Below are positions 7,520 to 64,000 of a stretch of DNA of 64,000 nucleotides, in pieces. The translations under genes and the position numbers were made by a program. Numbering within the stretch: position 1 is the stretch's first letter; the number at the start of each line of letters is the position of its first letter. The stretch is from a virus. The notes beneath the pieces are model-generated. The model was given only the letters and a program-made list of their open reading frames with translations, was not told the origin of the DNA and did not search any database. Location: positions 1-64,000 of IMG/VR virus record IMGVR_UViG_3300037258_000171. One strand, written 5' to 3'.

Positions 7520-7810
7520 ATGCGCATCGCCAAGGAAACCGGCGGCTGCACCATCAGCTACGCCGGCAAGGACTACACCTGGAAGACGGACGGCGCCGCG
7601 ATCCAGGTACCCCGCGAGCTGGGCCGGGAACTTCTGTCCATCCGGGGTGCCGGCTACTCCGAGCCGGAGGACCCCGCGCCGTCCCAGCCCGCGAGGCCCC
7701 CCGCCGTGACCGAGCCGGAACCTGCGGAGGAGAAGGCCGTCACCGAGCCCGCGCCGGCGGCTAAGGCCCCGGTGACCGAGGCCCCCGCTAAGAGCGCCCC
7801 CGCCAAGTAA
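7520..7810 (+). CDS. Small head protein with low-complexity tail
   Basis: A 96-residue protein. The first ~50 residues look folded (MRIAKETGGCTISYAGKDY ... VPRELGRELLSIRG); the rest is an Ala/Pro/Glu/Lys repeat tail (VTEPEPAEEKAVTEPAPAAK). ATG 7520 is preferred over upstream GTG codons because AAGGGGCGCT is a good ribosome site and the upstream bases belong to the terminator stem. The same two-part design is seen in the protein at 11683. Family common near capsid genes of actinophages; role unknown. Confidence 0.65.
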   Translation: MRIAKETGGCTISYAGKDYTWKTDGAAIQVPRELGRELLSIRGAGYSEPEDPAPSQPARPPAVTEPEPAEEKAVTEPAPAAKAPVTEAPAKSAPAK

Positions 7811-7850
7811 CCGCGCGTTACCCGCTCACGCCAGACCTGCAGGGGGTGCC

Positions 7851-29177: not shown

Positions 29178-29287
29178 CGCGCGATCCTAGCTGTCACCAC
29201 CCGCTCACGCTCCGTAATCCCCGCACCCCGCAAGCCCCCCGGGGGCCACGACCAGGCCGCCAGCGGCAATCACCGAGGGGGCGACCG

Positions 29288-33239: not shown

Positions 33240-33454
33240 GCGCTCGCCTCCTGCGTGGCGAGCCGGGCAACCTCGCGGACCGTCTCAGGCCCGGCGGCCA
33301 GCAGTTCCTCCGCGAGCTCCAGTCCGCCGCAGGTCGGCCCGGCCGTATCCAGCTTGCGAGCGGTGCCCTCATCGAGGCCCATCCTCCGCAGCCTGCGGAT
33401 GGCGGAGTGCAGTCGCATGCCGTCCTGGAAGATCTGACCCGGCGTGATTGCCAT
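33236..33454 (-). CDS. Small helical protein, first gene of leftward operon
   Basis: 72 residues (MAITPGQIFQDGMRLHSAIR ...), helical throughout with LDEGTARKLDTAGPTCGGLE in the centre. Upstream in-frame codons exist, but ATG 33454 is best placed behind GGGACAATGGATGC. It is the first gene downstream of the palindromic operator array, so it and the four to six genes after it are probably controlled together. No family recognised. Confidence 0.55.
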   Translation of the reverse strand: MAITPGQIFQDGMRLHSAIRRLRRMGLDEGTARKLDTAGPTCGGLELAEELLAAGPETVREVARLATQEASA

Positions 33455-35049: not shown

Positions 35050-35262
35050 CTACAGGACTGCGGCGGCAACCCGCTCGTGTCTTACGCTGCAGAGAGACGA
35101 GCGGTATCTGAGCTGACTCCTGCACTTCAGCCCCCGTCCCGGCCGCACCACAGACCAGGTGCAAATGCAGGTGCCGGGGACCAGGAGAGTCGGCATCTCC
35201 ACGGTGCCGGCGGGTACCTGGCCGATGCCCTTGCGGAGGTCGAACACGCGGGCGGTGGTCAC
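35050..35262 (-). CDS. Small hypothetical protein downstream of RNA ligase
   Basis: 70 residues, GTG start in a GTGA overlap with the RNA ligase stop. It reads VTTARVFDLRKGIGQVPAGT, with a hydrophobic centre (TLLVPGTCICTWSV) and a basic end. The coupling suggests translation, but no domain is seen. Confidence 0.45.
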   Translation of the reverse strand: MTTARVFDLRKGIGQVPAGTVEMPTLLVPGTCICTWSVVRPGRGLKCRSQLRYRSSLCSVRHERVAAAVL

Positions 35263-35966
35263 GACGCGCCGACCTGCTCGCGCGGACGCCCTGAGCGGCG
35301 CCCCTGCGCCCGGAAGTCCTTGCCCTTCAGCTTGAAGATCAGTCGCTCGCCCCGGTTGTCGTACAGCGGCTCCACGGTCCGCGCGACGATCCCCTCGGCC
35401 ATGAACTCCGGGTCGAACTCCTGCGCCGCGCCCGAGGCAAAGCCGTCCCGCACGAGGGCCACGATCTCGGCCAGCGCCATCGGCTCGCCGCCGTTCAGCA
35501 GCGGCACGCGGGGGATGCCCAGCTTCTCCGCGGTCTCCGTGACCGCTCCATCGGACAGGTAGGTGCCATCGGCCACGGCCACGTCAAACAGCGTGAAGCC
35601 CTGGTCCGGGCGGTAACGTCCGCCACTCTGGATCTTCGCCCCGTAGCCCTCGCCGTAGAGCGTGAGAGCGTCCAGGTCGTGCTCGCGCATGATGGCCAGC
35701 ACCTCCGGGGCCACGCGGCCGGCGAGGTCGCTGCAGTGCGCCAGGAGCTTCGGCGGGATCGACGCCTCATCGGTCTTGCCCGCCACGGTGTACGTCGTGC
35801 CGTCCTTGATGCGACTGAACCCGATCCGGATGTTCGTGCCGTCTACCTTCTCCGTCACCAGCCAGCCCGCGATGGTGCCGAACACCGGGCGGCGCAGCTT
35901 ACTCACGTCCACCCGGAAGTCCTCGTCCCGGTCGAATAACGTCTCGATCTTGCTGTACGGCTTCAC
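35259..35966 (-). CDS. ATP-dependent RNA ligase, Rnl2 type
   Basis: 235 residues. Nucleotidyltransferase motifs are clear and in order: motif I VTEKVDGTNIRI (adenylated K40), motif III LYGEGYGAK, motif IV EFMAEGIVART, motif V RLIFKLKGKDF. The size and spacing fit T4 Rnl2-like RNA ligases, which seal nicks in RNA. In phages these enzymes repair tRNAs cut by host anticodon nucleases. It lies between a terminator and a small gene. A second, unrelated RNA ligase (RtcB) is encoded at 40287. Confidence 0.85.
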   Translation of the reverse strand: MKPYSKIETLFDRDEDFRVDVSKLRRPVFGTIAGWLVTEKVDGTNIRIGFSRIKDGTTYTVAGKTDEASIPPKLLAHCSDLAGRVAPEVLAIMREHDLDALTLYGEGYGAKIQSGGRYRPDQGFTLFDVAVADGTYLSDGAVTETAEKLGIPRVPLLNGGEPMALAEIVALVRDGFASGAAQEFDPEFMAEGIVARTVEPLYDNRGERLIFKLKGKDFRAQGRRSGRPREQVGAS

Positions 35967-36047: not shown

Positions 36048-36755
36048 TCAGACGGACGGCCCGTCCTGGCCAGTCCACATCTGGCTGTTGGCGATGTAAC
36101 CGCCAGTCAGCTTGTTCTCCGGCTCGCCGAACAGCTGGTTGACCGGCTTCTTGCTGCCCGCGTTGACGGTCAGCGAGATGGGATGCGAAAAGCCGGTGAA
36201 GCCAGCCGACACCAGCGGCGTGTACCAGTGGCCGCTGGTGAAGTGGGCGTTGGCCAGGTCGCCGATCCACAGCGAGCCCGCGTCCGCGCCGCAATTGCGC
36301 AGCGTCACGTGCTCGCCCGCGAACTCCGGCAGCGCGAGGCCGGCACACAAACCGGTCTCATTGCCGAACGGAGACACGTCTGCCTCGTAGATCGGGTAGC
36401 TGGGGTATTTCAGGCACGCGTACGACGTGGAGGACAGCAGGCCCTGCGGGTTGGTCGCCGACTGGCAGAACTGCGAGACGGTGCCCACCTTCCCGCCAGT
36501 CACGTCCTCGTTGACCTGAGTGTCCGTCTTGAAGTGCAGATTGACCTTCTGGCCGACCTTCGCGCCGACCCCGGTGTCCCCGGGCACGTAGGCGTTGACG
36601 ATCTGCGACGTCCCCAGCTCCAGGCTGGAGATGTCAATGCAGTGGTGCCCGCAGGCCGGCGTAGCGCCCGGGTGCACCGACGCGGAGGCGGCAGCGGGCA
36701 GTCCTGCGACTGCCAGGGCCGCGATGCCCGCGACGGCAAGAGTGATGCGGTTCAT
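36048..36755 (-). CDS. Secreted protein with Sec signal peptide
   Basis: 235 residues. Residues 1-26 are a textbook signal peptide (MNRITLAVAGIAALAVAGLP, then AAASAS). The mature part is rich in Gly, Thr and Asn, with six Cys (ACGHHC, FCQ, ACLK, LCAG, NCGA) likely forming disulphides outside the cell. It resembles secreted proteins of unknown function in actinomycete chromosomes. GGAAGGAAACGC is an excellent ribosome site. As a lone gene with its own terminator next to the repressor block, it is a likely lysogenic-conversion gene expressed from the prophage. Confidence 0.65.
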   Translation of the reverse strand: MNRITLAVAGIAALAVAGLPAAASASVHPGATPACGHHCIDISSLELGTSQIVNAYVPGDTGVGAKVGQKVNLHFKTDTQVNEDVTGGKVGTVSQFCQSATNPQGLLSSTSYACLKYPSYPIYEADVSPFGNETGLCAGLALPEFAGEHVTLRNCGADAGSLWIGDLANAHFTSGHWYTPLVSAGFTGFSHPISLTVNAGSKKPVNQLFGEPENKLTGGYIANSQMWTGQDGPSV

Positions 36756-36896: not shown

Positions 36897-37145
36897 TCAG
36901 AACTCGCGATGACCCTCCAGGCCCTGGAGTGCCCCGGCGGGCGGCAGGCTGTCGTCGCGGTGATGCTGCTCGATATGCCGGCGGCGGCCCTCAACCGCCT
37001 CAGCGCGATCGCGGTAGAACTCGCTGTCCACGTTGCCGTTGCACTCCGGGTGCTGGCAGATCACCTCATACACGCGCTGGACGCTCACCATCGACGCCCG
37101 GAACTTCTCGGGCGCGGGCCTGGGCTCCCATCCGCGCCGGCTCAC
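36897..37145 (-). CDS. Small C2H2-like protein next to excisionase
   Basis: 82 residues, GTG start overlapping the excisionase stop (GTGA). VYEVICQHPECNGNV and RRRHIEQHHRDD together give C-x4-C and H-x3/4-H spacing of a single zinc finger. It is probably co-expressed with the excisionase and may be a DNA-binding partner. Function inferred from position. Confidence 0.55.
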   Translation of the reverse strand: MSRRGWEPRPAPEKFRASMVSVQRVYEVICQHPECNGNVDSEFYRDRAEAVEGRRRHIEQHHRDDSLPPAGALQGLEGHREF

Positions 37146-37426
37146 GACGCCTTCTGTTCCGGGTGGTCGTCCGACTCGGCGGACTCAGCGGCGTTGCTCT
37201 TGGCCCGCTTCTGCTCAGCGCTCTTGCGGTCCAGGTAGGCGGTGATCTCCTCAACGCGGATCTTGCGAATCCGCGGGCCGAGCAGCACCGAGGGCAGCTC
37301 GCCGGTACGCAGGAGGCTGAACAAGGTCGCCTTGCTGACGCCCAGCGCCTCCATGGCCTGCTTCGGGCTTAAGACGAGCGCCTTCTGCGGCTGCTCGCCG
37401 TCACCGCTGCTGGTGTTAGTGCTCAC
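37142..37426 (-). CDS. Excisionase / MerR-type HTH protein
   Basis: 94 residues. VLSPKQAMEALGVSKATLFS (helix-turn-helix) followed by LLRTGELPSVLLGPRIRKIR (wing) and EITAYLDRK is the HTH_17 excisionase pattern. The gene is divergent from the repressor-integrase operon, as expected for a recombination directionality factor. GTG 37426 is preferred over an upstream GTG because the promoter at 37436-37464 would start RNA within a few bases of it, giving a leaderless message. C-terminal tail is charged and disordered. Confidence 0.75.
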   Translation of the reverse strand: MSTNTSSGDGEQPQKALVLSPKQAMEALGVSKATLFSLLRTGELPSVLLGPRIRKIRVEEITAYLDRKSAEQKRAKSNAAESAESDDHPEQKAS

Positions 37427-37491: not shown

Positions 37492-37941
37492 ATGGCAGAG
37501 GATCCGTTGCTGATGGCCGATACCTGGCTCATCCGCAACATCAAGCAGGAGCGCGAAGCGCGCGGACTGTCCCAGGGGGCGCTCGCTGCCCAGATGCACG
37601 ACCTCGGATTCAAGTTCGCGCAGCAGACCATCGGCCGCATCGAGAAGGGCCAGCGGACCGTCAGCGGCGGCGAGGCCCTGGCCTTCGCCCGGCTGTTCGG
37701 GCGGGAGCTGAACGACCTGTTCCAGGCGCCCGACGTGACGAAGTACCAGGCCGACCTGCGGCACAAGACGCGGAACCTGCAGGAGACCGAGGCGTACGCC
37801 AACGGCGCGATGATCAGCCACCAGACGGCCGCCGCCGAGCTCAGCAGCCTCGTCGCAGACCTCCGGGCCGGTCCGCACGCCGCGGCTCTGGCCGAGGAGC
37901 TGGACGCCGCCGAGAAGGCACTCAAGGGAGGGCGGCCATGA
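37492..37941 (+). CDS. XRE-family repressor
   Basis: 149 residues. Residues ~13-72 are an XRE/Cro-CI helix-turn-helix: LIRNIKQEREARGLSQGALA, then FAQQTIGRIEKGQRTVSGGE and LARLFG-like close. A helical C-terminal half (residues 80-149) likely dimerises. It overlaps the integrase by ATGA, so both are translated together. It is the best candidate for the lysogeny repressor. Start ATG 37492 is used; the upstream in-frame ATG 37450 would cross the operator. Confidence 0.75.
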   Translation: MAEDPLLMADTWLIRNIKQEREARGLSQGALAAQMHDLGFKFAQQTIGRIEKGQRTVSGGEALAFARLFGRELNDLFQAPDVTKYQADLRHKTRNLQETEAYANGAMISHQTAAAELSSLVADLRAGPHAAALAEELDAAEKALKGGRP

Positions 37942-39317
37942 CCGGCACCCGCAAGGACAACGGCGAGTCCTGGGTAGGCACCGAGAAGAACGCGCGCGGC
38001 TACTACGAGGCCAGTGTGTGGATGGGCGTGAAGGGCAACGGCCGGCCGGACCGGCGCCACGTCCAGCGCAAGAGCCAGAAGGCGGTCAAGGAGCGGGTCA
38101 AGGAACTGGAGCGCAAGCGTGACCTCGGCCAGTCAGTCAAGGCCGGGAAGGCGCCCACCGTCCAGCAGATGCTTGAGCGGCACCTGACCGTCGTGCTCCC
38201 CCAGCGCGGAGTGTCGCCGACGACCATCCGCGGGTACCGGTCGCAGTGCCGGACCGACATCTTCCCCCGGTGGGGTGCGCAGCGCATCGACCGGCTCCAG
38301 GCCGAGGACATCGAGGAAGGCCTGGCCGACATGCTTGCCGAGGGCAAGTCAGCGGCAACCGTCGTCAAGGCCAGGGCGATCCTGTCGGCCGCCCTGGCGG
38401 ATCAGGTGAAGCGCGAGCGCATCGCCCGCAACCCGTGCGCCATCATCCGGCCGACCAAGATCCCCGACCGGAAGATGGCGTCACTGTCCGAGGACGAGGC
38501 GATGCGCGTGCTGGACGCCGCGGCGAAGCACGTGAACGCGCCGCGGTGGTCGCTGGCGATCCTGCGGGGCCTGCGGCAGGGCGAGGTGCTGGGACCGCGG
38601 TGGGACGACCTGGACCTGAACGCCGGGCGCCTGCTGATCCACCGGCAGCTGCAGCGGCTCACCTGGTCGCACGGATGCGCCGACCAGGACCGCGCGCAGT
38701 ACGCCGACATGAACGATGAGAAGAAGCGCAAGGCGCGGCTGGCCATCGAGCACGCCTGCGCGGCACCGCACTGCAAGGTGAAGCCGTGCAAGAAGGTCAA
38801 GGGGAAGTGCCGGCTGCACACCCGCGAGTGCCCGCCGCCGTGCCCGGCGGACTGCACCGACCACGCCCGGCTGTGCCCGCACCGCAAGGGCGGCGGCCTG
38901 GTGTTCCGCGAGATCAAGGAGAACCGCCAGAAGACCGTCCGGCTGACCGCGCCGCTCATCGCCGAGCTGAAGGGCCACCGTGACGCCCAGTTCCTTCAGA
39001 AGGAGACGACGGGGGAGTTGTGGGATGACCACGGGCTGATCTTCTGCCGGTGGAACGGGAAGCCGGTTGACCCGCGCCGGGACTACGGCGAGTGGCAGCA
39101 GATCCTGAAGGAGGCCGGCCTGCCCCGGCACCGGCTGCACGCGCTGCGGCACTCGGCCGCGTCAATCGCGCTGGACGGCGGGGCGGACATCGCCGTCGTC
39201 CAGGAGATGCTGGGCCACTCCGATATCCGGATGACGCGCCGCTACGCCCATCCCTCGGACGCCCGGCATGACGAGATGGGCCGCCAGATGGACCGTCTCC
39301 TGGGGGGCGGGAAATGA
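37938..39317 (+). CDS. int: Tyrosine integrase with Cys-rich insertion
   Basis: 459 residues. N-terminal arm-binding region (~1-75), SAM-like core-binding domain (~76-170) and catalytic domain with R213 (LRGLRQGE), K332, H401-x2-R404 (HALRH), H427 (LGHS) and Y436 (RRYAH). Between R213 and K332 the protein carries an insertion (residues ~245-315) with nine cysteines (C247-C313) and several His, suggesting bound zinc. The enzyme recombines attP with attB in a tRNA-Thr gene. It is coupled to the repressor upstream and lies 86 bases before the att core. Confidence 0.9.
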   Translation: MTGTRKDNGESWVGTEKNARGYYEASVWMGVKGNGRPDRRHVQRKSQKAVKERVKELERKRDLGQSVKAGKAPTVQQMLERHLTVVLPQRGVSPTTIRGYRSQCRTDIFPRWGAQRIDRLQAEDIEEGLADMLAEGKSAATVVKARAILSAALADQVKRERIARNPCAIIRPTKIPDRKMASLSEDEAMRVLDAAAKHVNAPRWSLAILRGLRQGEVLGPRWDDLDLNAGRLLIHRQLQRLTWSHGCADQDRAQYADMNDEKKRKARLAIEHACAAPHCKVKPCKKVKGKCRLHTRECPPPCPADCTDHARLCPHRKGGGLVFREIKENRQKTVRLTAPLIAELKGHRDAQFLQKETTGELWDDHGLIFCRWNGKPVDPRRDYGEWQQILKEAGLPRHRLHALRHSAASIALDGGADIAVVQEMLGHSDIRMTRRYAHPSDARHDEMGRQMDRLLGGGK

Positions 39318-39402: not shown

Positions 39403-39448
39403 TGGAGCCGCCTATCGGAATCGAACCGATGACCTATTCATTACGAGT
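39403..39448 (-). other. attP: attP core: 3' half of tRNA-Thr(CGT)
   Basis: On the minus strand the 46 bases run from the anticodon loop (CTCGTAA, anticodon CGT) through the T-arm (ATCGGTTCGATTCCGAT) to AGGCGGCTCCA with a CCA end. No 5' half of a tRNA precedes it, so it is an attachment core, not a tRNA gene. Integration would restore the host tRNA-Thr gene. Phage genes lie on both sides, meaning the phage is not integrated in this sequence. Confidence 0.85.
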
Positions 39449-40286: not shown

Positions 40287-41441
40287 TCAGCCTTTGTAGT
40301 TGAACACCTGGTGCAGTGTGTGCTCGATCGCGGCGAGGTCGCGCTGGTCTGCCATGACCTTGTCCACGTCCTTGTACGCCTCAGGGTGCTCATCCACCAG
40401 GTCCCCGGCGCGGTCGGAGTTCCACGTGCGGTCGCCCATCGCCAACGTGAGCGACTCGGCAGTCAGCTTCCGCCGGGCATCACCGCGCGACATCCTGCGC
40501 CCGGCTCCGTGGGAGCAGGAGTCATAGGACGCCGCGCTGCCGAGGCCGCGGACGATGTAGGAGCGCGTACCCATCGACCCGGGGATGATCCCCATGTCCC
40601 CGCTGGCCGCCTTGATGGCGCCCTTCCGGGTGATCCACATGTCCCGGCCGTGGTGGTGCTCCATAGCCGTGAAGTTGTGATGGCAGTTCGTGGTGGCGAC
40701 GACGGCGCCGCATCCGACTACCTCGAACAGCGAGCGGGCGATGGCTGAGTTCATCCTCGCCCGCGACGCCATCGCATAGCGCTGGCACCAGAGCATGTCC
40801 TCGATGTAGGCCGTGAACTCCGGCGTGCCCTGCACCAGGTAGGCGAGGTCGGGATCCTCCAGTTCGATGAACCACTGCTTCATCAGCTTGCGGGCCTTGT
40901 CGATGTGGGTCTTCGCGAGCTGGTTGCCGATGCCGCGCGACCCGCTGTGCAGGACAGTCCAGACGTGGTCCCGCTCATCCAGGCAGACCTCTACGAAGTG
41001 GTTGCCCGATCCGAGGGTGCCGAACTGGCAGCCGACTGTGTTGACCTGCTTGCCGGTCAGGTCGCTGTGCGGGTCTCCGAGCTCGCCGAGGGCGGAGTCC
41101 GTGGCCGGGTCATCGTGGCCCTTGCCGACGCCGGCCGGGATCCGCTGCTCAACCAGCGGCATCAGGGCGGCGAGGTTGTCGGGCAGGTCTTCCGCCTTCA
41201 GCGTGGTCTCGCTGGCAACCATCCCGCAGCCGATATCAACCCCGACCGCGGCGGGGATTATGGCTCCGCGCGTCGGGATGACAGAGCCGACCGTGGACCC
41301 GATGCCGTAATGCGCGTCAGGCATGAGCGCGACGTGGCCCTGGATGAACGGCAGGCGCGAGGTCCGGGCCGCCTGCTCGACAGTGCCGGACTCGATGTCG
41401 CTGGCCCATGACAGCAGGGCCGGGGCTAGCTTCTCGGGCAT
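40287..41441 (-). CDS. rtcB: RtcB-type RNA ligase
   Basis: 384 residues with the full RtcB signature: MPDAHYGIGSTVGSVIPT, GVDIGCGM (metal Cys72), GSGNHFVEV, LHSGSRGIGN, NCHHNFTAMEHHHG and SYDSCSHGAGRRMSR with the guanylated His. RtcB joins 2',3'-cyclic phosphate or 3'-phosphate RNA ends to 5'-OH ends using GTP and Mn2+, the chemistry needed to reseal tRNAs cut by anticodon nucleases. No archease gene is recognised in the window. It is the last gene of the leftward early train and is followed by a hairpin. Confidence 0.93.
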   Translation of the reverse strand: MPEKLAPALLSWASDIESGTVEQAARTSRLPFIQGHVALMPDAHYGIGSTVGSVIPTRGAIIPAAVGVDIGCGMVASETTLKAEDLPDNLAALMPLVEQRIPAGVGKGHDDPATDSALGELGDPHSDLTGKQVNTVGCQFGTLGSGNHFVEVCLDERDHVWTVLHSGSRGIGNQLAKTHIDKARKLMKQWFIELEDPDLAYLVQGTPEFTAYIEDMLWCQRYAMASRARMNSAIARSLFEVVGCGAVVATTNCHHNFTAMEHHHGRDMWITRKGAIKAASGDMGIIPGSMGTRSYIVRGLGSAASYDSCSHGAGRRMSRGDARRKLTAESLTLAMGDRTWNSDRAGDLVDEHPEAYKDVDKVMADQRDLAAIEHTLHQVFNYKG

Positions 41442-50371: not shown

Positions 50372-51078
50372 GGCTTCGCCTCCGGTGCCGCCATACGGTC
50401 GATCTCGGCGGCGATGAGCGCGCCGGCCTTGACCAGCTGACGGCGGATGGTTGATCGCTTGCAGCGCCACTGCGGAGGCCAGCAGCCGGGGTCCAGGCCG
50501 ATGGTGTCGGCGGCGTACCAGATGGCAGCGCGCGTCAGTGCGCGGTCCTCGTGCCCGGCGTCGTGCCCGGCGGTGTAGCCCTCTTCCGCGATCTGGCGCC
50601 GACGTTCGGCGGCGATCAGCGCGGCACCGTCGTTGCGGGGGTCGCGCAGGCCCGCTATCTCGGCGTCCCGCTCGGCCATCAGCGCCTCAGCCTTCTCTGC
50701 CCGCTCATCAGCCGACCGGCATGAATCCAGCAGCCGGGCACATGCGCCGCAGCTCGTGTTCCAGGTGATCCGGTTCTCGTAGTCGGCAATGGTGGCGCGC
50801 AGGGATTCAAGCTCAGCGTCCTTACGGGCGATCAGCTCCCGCAGTTCCCCGGAGGCATGCAGGTCAGCCGCAGATCCTGTGCGCTCCTGTACCTCGCACT
50901 CGGCGATCGTGAACGACTGCGGCAGGCACATCCGAACTCCGTCTGCCTGCTCGATGATGACGCCGGGGTCGGAGTGCATGGCGATGAGCTGGCCGGACCA
51001 GGATGAGCCGTGGACCGGGTTAGTCACCGTGACCCATGCGCGCCGGGAGAGCAGGGCGTCCAGGTCGGCATCACTCAC
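50368..51078 (-). CDS. Conserved phage protein with C-terminal AEIDR module
   Basis: 236 residues. N-terminal barrel-like part (RRAWVTVTNPVHGSSWSGQL), a coiled coil (~85-150) and a C-terminal block AALIAAERRRQIAEEGYTAG, HDAGHEDRALTRAA, LVKAGALIAAEIDRMA. The last block is a widely found phage module of unknown function. The modular build, with unrelated N-termini joined to it in other phages, is known. Confidence 0.6.
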   Translation of the reverse strand: MSDADLDALLSRRAWVTVTNPVHGSSWSGQLIAMHSDPGVIIEQADGVRMCLPQSFTIAECEVQERTGSAADLHASGELRELIARKDAELESLRATIADYENRITWNTSCGACARLLDSCRSADERAEKAEALMAERDAEIAGLRDPRNDGAALIAAERRRQIAEEGYTAGHDAGHEDRALTRAAIWYAADTIGLDPGCWPPQWRCKRSTIRRQLVKAGALIAAEIDRMAAPEAKP

Positions 51079-51613
51079 CGGCCACCTCCGCGGTCCGGTC
51101 CAGCCATTCCGTCGCGGACTCCGTGCCGTTCCACTGGTCAGCCGGGTCGTTGTCGTCCACGTCCGGGATGGCGTTCAGGATCCACTCCATGGCCTTCCCG
51201 GCGCCGTTCTGCCGCATCTCGATCTGCGCCGCCCGCATGGTCCGGGACATGTGCGTCACCGTCCGGCCGAGTTCCCTGCCGCCGGAGCGCAGCCGCTCCA
51301 GTTCGGTTCGCTCCGGCGCCTCGTCGGACCCCGCAGCCTCGTAGGACGCCACGCGCACCTCATCGGCCAGCGGGTAGATGCCGGCCCCGTCAGCCTCCAG
51401 CGCCGCCCAGTCGCCCGGGGGAAGCCACATCCACGCCGCGGACTTCTGCACCCACACGTTCAGGGCGCCCTGCTGAGTGTCGGCCGGGACAGGCTTGCCG
51501 CTGTGCTCGGCGATGAGCAGCCGGGCCCTCTCGCTGCCGTCCCAGCGGATCATCTCCACCAGGGCCGGCCTCTTGCGGAAGCGCCGGATCGCGCCGGGGG
51601 TCTTGTCAGGCAC
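51071..51613 (-). CDS. Conserved actinophage hypothetical protein
   Basis: 180 residues. The start FRKRPALVEMIRWDGSERAR and VWVQKSAAWMWLPPGDWAAL ... YPLADEVRVASYEAA follow the pattern of a common phage protein (F-R-K-K-P-V-x-V-E-A, ending W-I-x-x-x-P-x-D/F). The C-terminal 75 residues are a separate helix block. Function unknown. Confidence 0.6.
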   Translation of the reverse strand: MPDKTPGAIRRFRKRPALVEMIRWDGSERARLLIAEHSGKPVPADTQQGALNVWVQKSAAWMWLPPGDWAALEADGAGIYPLADEVRVASYEAAGSDEAPERTELERLRSGGRELGRTVTHMSRTMRAAQIEMRQNGAGKAMEWILNAIPDVDDNDPADQWNGTESATEWLDRTAEVAGE

Positions 51614-60179: not shown

Positions 60180-60574
60180 CGCTGACCGCCCCACTGACCC
60201 CGGTAGGAGTCCCGCACTGAGGCACCGATGGACTGCTGGAAGCCGCCCTGCTTGCCGACGGTCCGCAGGTGATCCGAGGCTGCCTGCCGGGCCGCCCGGG
60301 CGAGCATCCATGCCAGTTCCTCATCGGCGCACTGATCCTCAGCCCAGGCGTCCCGCTCGGCGACGGTCCACTCGTTGCGGCGGACCTTCGGGCAGTCCGG
60401 CGACAGCAGCGCCCGGCGCTTGGCCGACTTGAGCGCGGCCAGCGCGTCAACCTCCAGGTCGCGCTTGTCGGCCAGCGCCTGCCGGGCGTCCTCCAGTGCG
60501 TCCGAGAACGACTGGAGGGCAGCCTCGGCGCCGGGCGGTGTCTGCGGGTCGTGGCCCTGATGGGCGGCGCTCAC
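60176..60574 (-). CDS. Helical protein of recombination operon
   Basis: 132 residues, GTG start. Long helix (LEDARQALADKRDLEVDALA) and a conserved SPDCPKVRRNEWTVAERDAW ... LLRTVGKQGGFQQSIGASVR-like end, found in actinophages beside RecT-like genes. It may assist the annealing protein; not proven. Confidence 0.6.
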   Translation of the reverse strand: MSAAHQGHDPQTPPGAEAALQSFSDALEDARQALADKRDLEVDALAALKSAKRRALLSPDCPKVRRNEWTVAERDAWAEDQCADEELAWMLARAARQAASDHLRTVGKQGGFQQSIGASVRDSYRGQWGGQR

Positions 60575-61752
60575 CGCTGCTCGGCCTTGTCTGCGCGCTC
60601 GTCCTTGTAGGCGGTCCAGACCGCGGAGGCGGCAGCGTCAGCGTCGCCCCGGGCGGTCTCCAGCGCCTTCTCCAGGAGCTCGATGGACGCAGCGACCTCA
60701 TCGGCGCTCATGTCGGCCAGGCGGCAGCCCTCGCGGCCGGTACGCCAGGCGATGAACTCCGAGATGTCATCGGCGGTCCCGAGCGGGATCTGGGTCAGCA
60801 GCTTGCCGAGCCTGGATGCACCGTTGCCGCCTCGCGCGGGTGCCGGATCGGCCTTCGCCGCGGACTCCTTCGCCTGCGGAGCCGCCGGAGCGGGGGCGGC
60901 AGGAGTCGCGGCCGGAGGAGCCTGCTGCCCGGTGATGTCGGCAGCGGTCAGCCGCTCGGTGGCGGACTCGAACTCGTCCTCCTTGCGGATCTCGCCGCGC
61001 TCCAGGCTCCGGTAGATGACGGTCAGCGTGGCCAGGTCGAACGAGGTCCACTTGTCGGCCGGGCTGCCGAGCTTCTGCACGAGCTGGCTCTCGATGACGC
61101 CGAACCGGGCGAAGCCGGCCAGGCACTTGTCGCGCCGCTCGGCGATGTCGGAGTCGTCGCCCTCCAGGGTCCGGTAGCAGGCCGCCACCGCGTCCTCGGT
61201 GAACCAGCCCGGCAGGATCGCGAAGATCATCTCCCGCAGGCGCCGGGCGCCCATGTTCGCGTTCAGCTCGTAGATGTCGCGGGTCTCGACCAGCTGCTTG
61301 GGGCCCTGCTTGGTGTCGCGGATGTGCGGCACGACGAACGTGGTGGAAGATCGGGTGTTGGTCTGGACGTCCCACGCCCACGCCTGCATCTCGGACTGGC
61401 CGTACTCGTCATCGCGGCGAAGCTCGGTGATGCCGTACTGCAGGTTGCCGAAGCAGCGGCCCAGTTCCCGGGCGAGCTGGACGGACGGCCCGGAGATCTG
61501 GCCGCCGCCGCGGCTGTAGCGGAAGAACGCCTTCTCTGCGAGCGACTTCTGCGCGCACGAGCGCTGCATCTCGGTGACGGCGCGGTTCATGTCGCGCGGG
61601 TGGCGCAGTGCGACGACGATCGCGGCCTCGACTTCGGCGACTGCGCGGGACTGCTCGACGGCGGTTCCCTGGCCGACTCGCGAAGGCCCGGCGACGCGCG
61701 GCGTCATCTGCTGGTGGCCGTTCTGGATCTGGTCAAGCGACGTGCTGGTCAT
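60571..61752 (-). CDS. RecT-like single-strand annealing protein
   Basis: 393 residues from MTSTSLDQIQNGHQQMTPRV. The core (VALRHPRDMNRAVTEMQRSC, FFRYSRGGGQISGPSVQLAR, SEMQAWAWDVQTNTRSSTTF) is typical of a phage annealing family within the RecT/Redbeta-like group. A Pro/Ala linker (~280-310) leads to a helical C-terminus. It binds and anneals single strands for phage recombination. It is coupled to the exonuclease upstream (ATGA), as in lambda Red and RecET. The family is inferred from pattern and pairing. Confidence 0.7.
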   Translation of the reverse strand: MTSTSLDQIQNGHQQMTPRVAGPSRVGQGTAVEQSRAVAEVEAAIVVALRHPRDMNRAVTEMQRSCAQKSLAEKAFFRYSRGGGQISGPSVQLARELGRCFGNLQYGITELRRDDEYGQSEMQAWAWDVQTNTRSSTTFVVPHIRDTKQGPKQLVETRDIYELNANMGARRLREMIFAILPGWFTEDAVAACYRTLEGDDSDIAERRDKCLAGFARFGVIESQLVQKLGSPADKWTSFDLATLTVIYRSLERGEIRKEDEFESATERLTAADITGQQAPPAATPAAPAPAAPQAKESAAKADPAPARGGNGASRLGKLLTQIPLGTADDISEFIAWRTGREGCRLADMSADEVAASIELLEKALETARGDADAAASAVWTAYKDERADKAEQR

Positions 61753-62612
61753 GAATAGTCCCCCCTTGCCTGCGCCCACATGGGCAGGCGAATCTGTGCG
61801 ACTTCGGATGTGTAGCCCGGCCAGATCCCGGACTCCTCGCAGTCCCGGTAGATCTCCAGGGCGCGCTCGTTGTGCTCGCGTCCGGCGGCCTGCCCGTCTG
61901 GGTCCAGCTGGCAGGCGGTCACCAGGTACGGCGGTTCCTTCTCCTGGAAGATGAAGAGGAACGGCAGGCGCAGCCCCGTCAGCGCCTCGATGCCGTCCAC
62001 GTACCAGGCGTCCTGCATGAAGTAGCGGAAGTTCCCCATCGAGCGGGCGATGGCGCCCGGGTCGGCTGACTGGCAGGTCTTGTAGTCAGCGAGGACGGGC
62101 ATGGCGGCATCCAGGTCGGGCAGCCAGTCCACGCGGGACCGGCGCCAGATCCCCCAGCGCTGGTCCTCCCAGAACAGGGACTGCTCCGGGTGGCCGCCGC
62201 GCTCCGGGTCGAATACGACGCTGGCGATGCGATGGGCGCGGATGGCCGCGGCCATCTCCTTCACCTGGTGATGCTCGACAGGCAGCAGCGGGACCTTCCC
62301 CTCCGCCCGAGCGGCCTTCGCCTGGTCCTTCGCGTCGTTCGTCCGCCAGCTGAGAGCGTCCACAACGGCTAGCTCGGCGCCCGTTCCGAGCACCAGCTTG
62401 TGCGCGGCGGTCCCGAGCTCCATCGCCGATGTCGGCGCCGGCGGGTGCTCGCGGTCGTAGGCGAACCTCGCCGGGCAGGATGGCGGCAGGAGTTTCTTGG
62501 CGCCGGAGACGGACAGGCTGCGACCGGGGACCGGGTCGGCGTGGTAGGCCGACTCGTCCAGGTCGTCGTAGATCCCGGCCTGGAAAACGGGTGCCTCCGC
62601 GAGCGCGGTCAT
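61749..62612 (-). CDS. RecE/lambda-exonuclease-type nuclease (PD-D/ExK)
   Basis: 287 residues. Typical exonuclease VIII-like motifs: LSVSGAKKLLPPSCPARFAY, MELGTAAHKLVLGTG (the A-x-H helix), RVDWLPDLDAAMPVLADYKT (catalytic D and D-Y-K) and QDAWYVDGIEALTG. It degrades 5' ends of double-stranded DNA to make 3' tails for the annealing protein. GTG/ATG coupling to genes on both sides. The call is firm for fold, good for role. Confidence 0.8.
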   Translation of the reverse strand: MTALAEAPVFQAGIYDDLDESAYHADPVPGRSLSVSGAKKLLPPSCPARFAYDREHPPAPTSAMELGTAAHKLVLGTGAELAVVDALSWRTNDAKDQAKAARAEGKVPLLPVEHHQVKEMAAAIRAHRIASVVFDPERGGHPEQSLFWEDQRWGIWRRSRVDWLPDLDAAMPVLADYKTCQSADPGAIARSMGNFRYFMQDAWYVDGIEALTGLRLPFLFIFQEKEPPYLVTACQLDPDGQAAGREHNERALEIYRDCEESGIWPGYTSEVAQIRLPMWAQARGDYS

Positions 62613-62977
62613 GCCCGGTCACCGTGATAGCGGTCGGTCCCCAGAACGAGATCGTCCTGAGCCGCCTGCAAGTCCTCCTCGTAGAAGCCGGGCCGGTCGC
62701 GGAAGTCGGCATCATCGCCGGCCCAGTTCGCCCAGCGCGTCATCTCGGCCACGTACTTGCCCCAGCGCTCCAGCGCCTCAGCAGGCGACAGCGACGGCGA
62801 GGACCAGGCGATGACCTGGACCTCAACGACCTCCGGCACGGGCGGCACGTCAGGGCCGACGACGATGGCTGAGGCCAGTTCCTCCAGCAGCTCCCGGCGG
62901 CGGTTCTCCGGCAGCAGGCGCAGGGCCCGCAGGCAGGTGACCTCCGCTTGCCGGATGGCGGTGACGGTGGCGCTCAT
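62609..62977 (-). CDS. Small hypothetical protein
   Basis: 122 residues: N-terminal helices (CLRALRLLPENRRRELLEEL), a proline-rich strand (VPPVPEVVEVQVIAWSSPSL) and an acidic W-rich helix. No family recognised. First of two coupled genes before the exonuclease. Confidence 0.5.
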   Translation of the reverse strand: MSATVTAIRQAEVTCLRALRLLPENRRRELLEELASAIVVGPDVPPVPEVVEVQVIAWSSPSLSPAEALERWGKYVAEMTRWANWAGDDADFRDRPGFYEEDLQAAQDDLVLGTDRYHGDRA

Positions 62978-63372
62978 AGCGACGCCTCCGCCGGGATGCT
63001 GGCCATCAGGTCGGCCATCTCGCGCTGGTAGGACTCGGCGGTGCGCTCTAGCTCGGCCTGCTTGTCAGCCACATCCCGGACCCTGATCGCCTCAGCTGCA
63101 GCGGTGATCGCGGCGAAAGCCTCAGCGACAAGGGGCGGGTAGGGCAGCAGGTCGGTGACCGGCACGTTGTAGAAGCCGGCCAGGATCCAGAGCCGCTCGA
63201 CGGTGACCGCGCGGTCAGCTCTCTCGTGACTGCCGACGACGACGGCCTTGAGCCTGCCGCCGGACGCCGCCTCAACCTGGCTGAGCGACATCCCGGCGCG
63301 GTCCCTGACTGCGCGGAGTCGCCTGCCGAGTGCGAGCTCGAAGTCGCTCGGGTTGCTGGCAGCGGCGGTCAT
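62974..63372 (-). CDS. BldD-like HTH regulator
   Basis: 132 residues. The N-terminal 70 residues (FELALGRRLRAVRDRAGMSL, GRLKAVVVGSHERADRAVTV, GFYNVPVTDLLP) match the DNA-binding domain of BldD, the master regulator of streptomycete development (K-A-V-V-V-G-S-Y-E-R-G-D-R-A-V-T). The C-terminal half is a helical segment (EAIRVRDVADKQAELERTAE) in place of the c-di-GMP-binding domain of BldD. So dimerisation and control likely differ. It lies at the head of the recombination operon and may control phage or host genes. Confidence 0.8.
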   Translation of the reverse strand: MTAAASNPSDFELALGRRLRAVRDRAGMSLSQVEAASGGRLKAVVVGSHERADRAVTVERLWILAGFYNVPVTDLLPYPPLVAEAFAAITAAAEAIRVRDVADKQAELERTAESYQREMADLMASIPAEASL

Positions 63373-63554
63373 GACGCACCGCCTGCGGGCTGCTCGGCTT
63401 TCGCCGGGCGCTTCGGTGCCGGCTTGGACCACCGGATCGCGGCGGCGAAGGCGTAGCCCTTGCGCGTCCCGTGAACGGCGACCACGACCCCGGCGACGAT
63501 GGCGGCGAGGACAACGACGCCGGTCACCAGCGCGGCGACTGCGAGAGTGCTCAC
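63369..63554 (-). CDS. Small membrane protein
   Basis: 61 residues, GTG start. A long hydrophobic stretch at residues 5-28 (AVAALVTGVVVLAAIVAGVV), then a basic cytosolic tail (RKGYAFAAAIRWSKPAPKRP). Coupled to the BldD-like gene. Could anchor a partner to the membrane; unknown. Confidence 0.55.
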   Translation of the reverse strand: MSTLAVAALVTGVVVLAAIVAGVVVAVHGTRKGYAFAAAIRWSKPAPKRPAKAEQPAGGAS

Positions 63555-64000
63555 TTGCCTGCCTCCTCATCGGTCACGACCGGCACCAGCTCGGTTGGCG
63601 TGTCCGCTACGGGCATGACCTGCGTCTCGTCCGGCGCCTGCTTACCGCCGCCCCACCGGCTCAGTGATTCCTGCGCGGCCTTCTGTGCCGCATCAGCGTC
63701 GGCTGCCTCAGCGGCCAGCCGGTCGCGGGTCGCATCCGGGATCGGGCCGGTCGCCGGGACGATCTCCCCGCTGGCCGTGACGGGCTGCGACACGGGCGGT
63801 ACCGGGGTGACGTGGACCGGGGGCACGGGCCGGAAGTCCGGCGCCCTGTACTCGGCGTACAGCCACGGCAGGACGTACGACGCCGGGTCGGCCTTGCGTG
63901 CGGCGTAGACCTTCAGCTCGTCCTCGGTCGGCTCCCGGAACGCTGCCGGGTCGGCGAGGTAGGCGAACTGCTCCTCGTGGTCGGGGATGATCGACCAGCC
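63551..64000 (-). CDS. Early protein cut by window edge
   Basis: The frame is open to base 64000, so the start lies outside; at least 149 codons remain. The visible N-terminal part reads PDHEEQFAYLADPAAFREPT and VYAARKADPASYVLPWLYAE, followed by a long Pro/Val linker and a C-terminal charged helix (RDRLAAEAADADAAQKAAQE). The GTG at 63826 in this frame is internal. Function unknown. Confidence 0.55.
   Translation of the reverse strand, partial: GWSIIPDHEEQFAYLADPAAFREPTEDELKVYAARKADPASYVLPWLYAEYRAPDFRPVPPVHVTPVPPVSQPVTASGEIVPATGPIPDATRDRLAAEAADADAAQKAAQESLSRWGGGKQAPDETQVMPVADTPTELVPVVTDEEAGK

Follow-up and report, generated by a model that had tools for sequence, protein, structure and literature searches.

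Background

BldD, which is found across actinomycetes, is the master brake on spore formation. In the mechanism described for it, tetrameric c-di-GMP joins two C-terminal domains (CTDs) of BldD, by which weakly interacting DNA-binding domains (DBDs) are brought together (PMC4151990). The DBD alone forms dimers only at concentrations of at least 10 µM, and good binding needs the c-di-GMP-joined CTD (PMC4151990). Since the DBD by itself dimerises so weakly, a working protein of BldD type lacking the CTD would need another dimeriser. As for phages, whi genes and bldM are repressed early in infection by phage Alderaan, and ΔbldD hyphae regrow faster after phage infection (PMC10117723). WhiB-like and Lsr2-like regulators are known in actinobacteriophages, and the survey describing them does not mention BldD (PMC8612146). 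No report of a BldD-type regulator in phages was found in our literature searches, which covered the literature in part.

Here we examine a stretch of 64,000 nucleotides (the window), positions 1 to 64,000 of IMG/VR record IMGVR_UViG_3300037258_000171. The original prediction proposed that it encodes a BldD DNA-binding domain with a different C-terminus. This was borne out by an open reading frame at exactly the positions given there, by domain matches, by the absence of the CTD and by the phage genes around it.

Results and discussion

Phage genome and likely host

The complete record (64,926 bases) represents a temperate actinobacterial phage. It codes for portal, major head, tape measure, tail fibre and endolysin proteins as well as integrase, excisionase, DnaB, DnaC and a repressor. 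A megablast search with its first 25 kb returned no near relatives among 50,697 phage records. The integration cassette comprises an excisionase-like HTH_17 protein (37142..37426, minus strand), a HTH repressor of cI/HipB type, not of BldD type (37513..37941, plus strand), and a tyrosine integrase directly beside it (37938..39317, plus strand; phrog_1, E 4.5e-58). The repressor and integrase genes overlap at 37938-37941 and thus appear translationally coupled, and the former is likely the lysogeny repressor. Such a role was also considered for the BldD-like protein and rejected, as its gene is located about 25 kb from the switch region and the other HTH repressor adjoins the integrase.

The attP core (39403..39448, minus strand, 46 nt) is identical at 46 of 46 positions to the 3' half of tRNA-Thr(CGT) from Actinomadura craniellae; in three other actinomycete genomes the identity is 88-95% across the aligned stretch. 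From this one tRNA match, the host is probably Actinomadura-like, with no Streptomyces genome among those compared. A streptomycete host is therefore unsupported. A canonical BldD is present in the likely host group (L055).

Two ligases flank the repressor-integrase cassette, one on each side: an RNA ligase (35259-35966, minus strand; phrog_548) and a tRNA splicing ligase of RtcB type (40287-41441, minus strand; phrog_1075, E 8e-131). They possibly constitute an RNA-repair answer to tRNA-cutting host defences. Beside the cassette there is also a gene with an apparent signal peptide and no Pfam or PHROG match (36048-36755, minus strand), possibly a lysogenic conversion gene.

The BldD-like gene and its operon

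The BldD-like gene (62974..63372, minus strand) encodes 132 amino acids and starts with an ATG that overlaps the upstream stop codon. We preferred this ATG to longer in-frame starts because of the ATGA overlap upstream and because a block of high identity with another phage contig, L002, starts there. Directly upstream, and sharing the ATGA overlap, is a gene for a small predicted membrane protein (63369..63554, minus strand); the corresponding slot in L002 likewise holds a small membrane protein. It is preceded by a gene of unassigned function (63551..64000, continuing to about 64073 in the record, minus strand) with a 59% identical homologue in L002. Downstream, again with an ATGA overlap, lies another gene of unassigned function (62609..62977, minus strand), which had no relatives in the viral contigs searched. 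It is followed by an exonuclease VIII (RecE)-like gene with DUF3799 (61749..62612, minus strand; phrog_412, E 1.4e-89) and, next in the same operon, by a gene for a phrog_3657 protein (60571..61752, minus strand; E 8.5e-97). Given the ATGA overlaps on both sides, the BldD-like gene is a link in a leftward operon that extends to the RecE-like and phrog_3657 genes. Judging from its gene content, this operon would be an early one.

DNA-binding domain and recognition segment

Residues 9-77 (63142..63348, minus strand) form an XRE DNA-binding domain of BldD type. In the alignment with residues 3-71 of Streptomyces coelicolor BldD, 42 of 69 positions (61%) are identical. BldD was the top match by a wide margin in searches of PDB sequences, PDB folds and NCBIfam. 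With phmmer, BldD entries 2ewt/4ob4 were matched at E 7.8e-19 and the runner-up XRE protein at E 0.012. The AlphaFold2 model (mean pLDDT 87) superimposes in Foldseek on the BldD DBD crystal structures 2ewt/4ob4 with an rmsd of 0.5-0.6 Å and a TM-score of 0.95-0.98, depending on the target. The helix-turn-helix is therefore as close to BldD as had been claimed. Pfam HTH_3 was matched with 25.4 bits (gathering score 23), and NCBIfam NF050110 (TransRegBldD) at E 1.7e-27. The NF050110 score of 96.2 bits lies below the equivalog cut-off of 250, whereas a BldD control (L007) reached 295.5.

The best conserved part comprises the recognition helix and the loop after it, residues 42-58 (KAVVVGSHERADRAVTV; 63199..63249, minus strand), which correspond to BldD 36-52 (KAVVVGSYERGDRAVTV). 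Here 15 of 17 residues are identical, against 27 of 52 in the remainder of the domain (Fisher one-sided p 0.007, for a segment picked post hoc from an alignment of related sequences). A phage homologue with an unrelated tail, L099, also retains 15 of 17 residues in this segment and 22 of 52 elsewhere. In paralogues from bacterial chromosomes whose total identity to BldD is comparable, just 9-13 of the 17 are retained. Nineteen positions of the domain differ from all 19 BldD orthologues compared. The check for altered recognition residues was divided in its outcome: the segment is kept at 15 of 17 positions, but three of the nineteen differing positions, which belong to the recognition region and are invariant in the 19 orthologues, are changed (W35L, Y43H and G46A). 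As the sole BldD-DNA structure found has a resolution of 4.5 Å, DNA-contacting residues cannot be named from it (PMC4151990). Judged by sequence, the protein likely reads BldD-like boxes, and conservation of the recognition segment is consistent with its reading BldD boxes in the absence of c-di-GMP.

BldD boxes in the phage genome

The record was searched for perfect BldD boxes, TNAC(N)5GTNA. Five were present where 4.6 were expected, i.e. there was no enrichment. The reversed pattern matched once, although it is the poorer control, the palindrome being over-represented in bacterial genomes too. Three boxes are intergenic: TAACCGCGCGTTA (7808..7820) and TGACCCGGCGTGA (33435..33447) lie between called genes and TCACGCTCCGTAA (29205..29217) between divergent genes. 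With five seen against 4.6 expected, these may have arisen by chance. Upstream of the BldD-like gene no perfect box occurs within the record, beyond which the operon start lies. The suggestion that the phage uses BldD-like sites of its own thus gained no positive support from the search, and the box count offers no support either way on host targets. At positions 11-80 of L002, three TAAC repeats resembling BldD half-sites follow a terminator-like hairpin and precede the first gene; the region matching them falls outside the record of the window.

These observations bear on a reading that we consider possible, though on the unlikely side: that the protein descends from the BldD type and now regulates the early operon of the phage itself, as an autorepressor or Cro-like factor reading a different operator. 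The location of the gene among recombination genes, the three recognition-region residues unlike those of all BldD orthologues, the intergenic position of three of the five perfect boxes and the common occurrence of small XRE regulators in phages all agree with it. Arguing against it are the preferential conservation of the recognition segment, the presence of a separate repressor of cI type beside the integrase and the lack of a perfect box ahead of the gene, the last in sequence that excludes the operon start.

A predicted helix in place of the c-di-GMP domain

Neither the CTD (PF21179, BldD-like_C) nor the c-di-GMP signature RXD-X8-RXXD was found in the 132-aa protein; PF21179 was detected in the BldD control (L007). 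In place of the linker and c-di-GMP domain, AlphaFold2 predicts a single helix of 47 residues (79-125; 62998..63138, minus strand), with block-mean pLDDT mostly 76-91. This agrees with the earlier claim that the c-di-GMP domain had been replaced. We conclude with high confidence that the gene encodes a BldD-type transcription factor which is unable to respond to c-di-GMP as BldD does.

The second half of the helix, from about V98 to I126, shows zipper-like heptads with V/L/Y/L at d positions. The signal is modest, an equally good heptad contrast being obtained in 66 of 2000 shuffles (p about 0.03). We also considered whether the tail could be a decayed BldD CTD, with the start of which it aligns weakly, as far as residue 121. 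This was rejected, as the scores were no better than those of shuffled tails (166 of 2967 and 275 of 3000 equally good, p about 0.06-0.09).

A DBD devoid of the CTD would be a plausible competitor of host BldD, occupying boxes or forming mixed dimers without proper repression, so that host genes are released. The weak and malleable contacts between BldD DBDs (PMC4151990) would favour such interference, and a temperate phage might still benefit from entry into spores. However, hypersporulating ΔbldD hosts recover better from phage (PMC10117723), and disabling BldD should therefore harm the phage; in addition, the long helix of the model suggests stable homodimers. We regard this dominant-negative action as improbable.

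Relatives in phages and bacteria

A tblastn search with the 132-aa protein (E 0.001) found no relatives among the 50,697 phage records, and IMG/VR contained four phage relatives. Being absent from so many records of isolated phages, the protein appears to be an uncommon variant, occurring mainly in uncultured phages. The closest relative, in L002, is 96% identical and occupies the same operon slot. The others are a protein of 72 aa read from an inner ATG, which consists of the DBD only and is 53% identical (L003/L098), the 135-aa protein of L099, which is 62% identical across 55 residues and has a different tail, and a doubtful relative with 36% identity (L004/L100). In these three, of 72-135 aa, the tail is a different one or is missing.

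The block of 95% DNA identity shared with L002 (63380-62951) corresponds nearly exactly to the gene, while its neighbours are diverged. Within it, 13 codons differ synonymously between the two genes and 6 nonsynonymously, which gives dN of about 0.02, dS of 0.13-0.16 and dN/dS of about 0.12-0.16. The gene is thus under purifying selection relative to the L002 phage. A gene-sized block amid diverged neighbours is reminiscent of a horizontally exchanged cassette, and together with the rarity of relatives it would suit a passenger of little or no function that was recently transferred from phage to phage. Yet the gene is intact in both phages at this low dN/dS, its operon slot is shared with L002 and three more phage homologues exist, and we consider such a passenger very unlikely. 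Next to the BldD-like gene of L002, positions 1473-1735 have a relative of 72% nucleotide identity at 51071-51613 (minus strand), about 11 kb off in the window, a likeness that, on sequence grounds, reflects mosaic exchange of early genes.

In bacteria, 165 of 247 sampled genomes of one class contained a match at E 1e-8, and among the matches listed from these genomes the open frames had at least 153 residues. The RXD-X8-RXXD signature was present in 24 of 24 actinobacterial homologues checked and in none of the five phage proteins. All homologues that were read out possessed both CTD and motif, with the exception of a Variovorax plasmid protein. The latter (L005, 6001-6666), encoded outside actinobacteria, is BldD-like and of full length but lacks the c-di-GMP motif. 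Assignment of a chromosomal paralogue class to BldO was dropped, BldO being of MerR type (PMC5485038).

In a tree of the DBDs, the phage proteins are placed outside the BldD orthologue clade (support 81/76), with long branches and most forks open. The tree was for this reason abandoned as an arbiter between single and repeated acquisition. It is conceivable, though rather doubtful, that phages of sporulating actinomycetes repeatedly took the DBD of BldD and swapped its sensor for other tails, producing signal-blind mimics by which an infected host is kept growing vegetatively.

Proposed mechanism

According to our model, the C-terminal helix would pair two copies of the protein, constitutively replacing the role that tetrameric c-di-GMP has in BldD. 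The paired protein could then occupy sites resembling BldD boxes at any c-di-GMP level, and may work like a BldD locked in the bound state. It would most likely be produced early in infection or induction and repress BldD-controlled promoters of the host, keeping it in vegetative, phage-permissive growth; phage promoters are the main alternative target. Since Alderaan lowers developmental transcripts early and ΔbldD hosts regrow faster (PMC10117723), it is plausible that the protein holds its host in vegetative growth. For the reading as a whole, a c-di-GMP-independent factor of BldD type, made early and repressing host BldD-controlled promoters, we put the chances at about even. Against it weigh the three altered residues of the recognition region, the number of BldD boxes in the phage, which is no higher than expected, the modest heptad signal, the placement of the phage proteins outside the BldD orthologue clade in a poorly resolved tree and a host assignment drawn from one tRNA match.

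If BldD boxes are indeed bound, the phage would bypass c-di-GMP, the signal by which antibiotic-producing actinomycetes are directed either to grow or to sporulate. Such binding would offer an explanation of how developmental genes come to be repressed early in infection, as has been reported, and the protein, as a natural constitutive BldD, would be usable as a tool.

Comparison with known systems

The phage protein shares with BldD (2ewt, 4ob4, NF050110) the fold and sequence of the DBD (61% identity), including 15 of 17 residues of the recognition segment. Unlike BldD, it has a single long helix instead of the CTD (PF21179) and c-di-GMP motifs, and it scores 96 bits against the 250 of the NF050110 cut-off. 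It is thus not a member of BldD proper, lacking the CTD and the motif and falling below that cut-off. ClgR of Corynebacterium glutamicum (3f51) also has an XRE domain followed by a helix and aligns with the model across about 94 columns, but the identity is 26%, the tails deviate by an rmsd of about 10 Å and the lineage is different. Phage repressors of Cro/cI type likewise carry an XRE helix-turn-helix, although the similarity is weak (phrog_2328, E 0.006). In the manner of acquisition, a parallel is provided by the WhiB and Lsr2 regulators of phages, which are likewise host-type actinobacterial transcription factors acquired by phages, though of different families (PMC8612146). If the protein binds BldD boxes, BldD would join WhiB and Lsr2 among the host regulators borrowed by actinobacteriophages.
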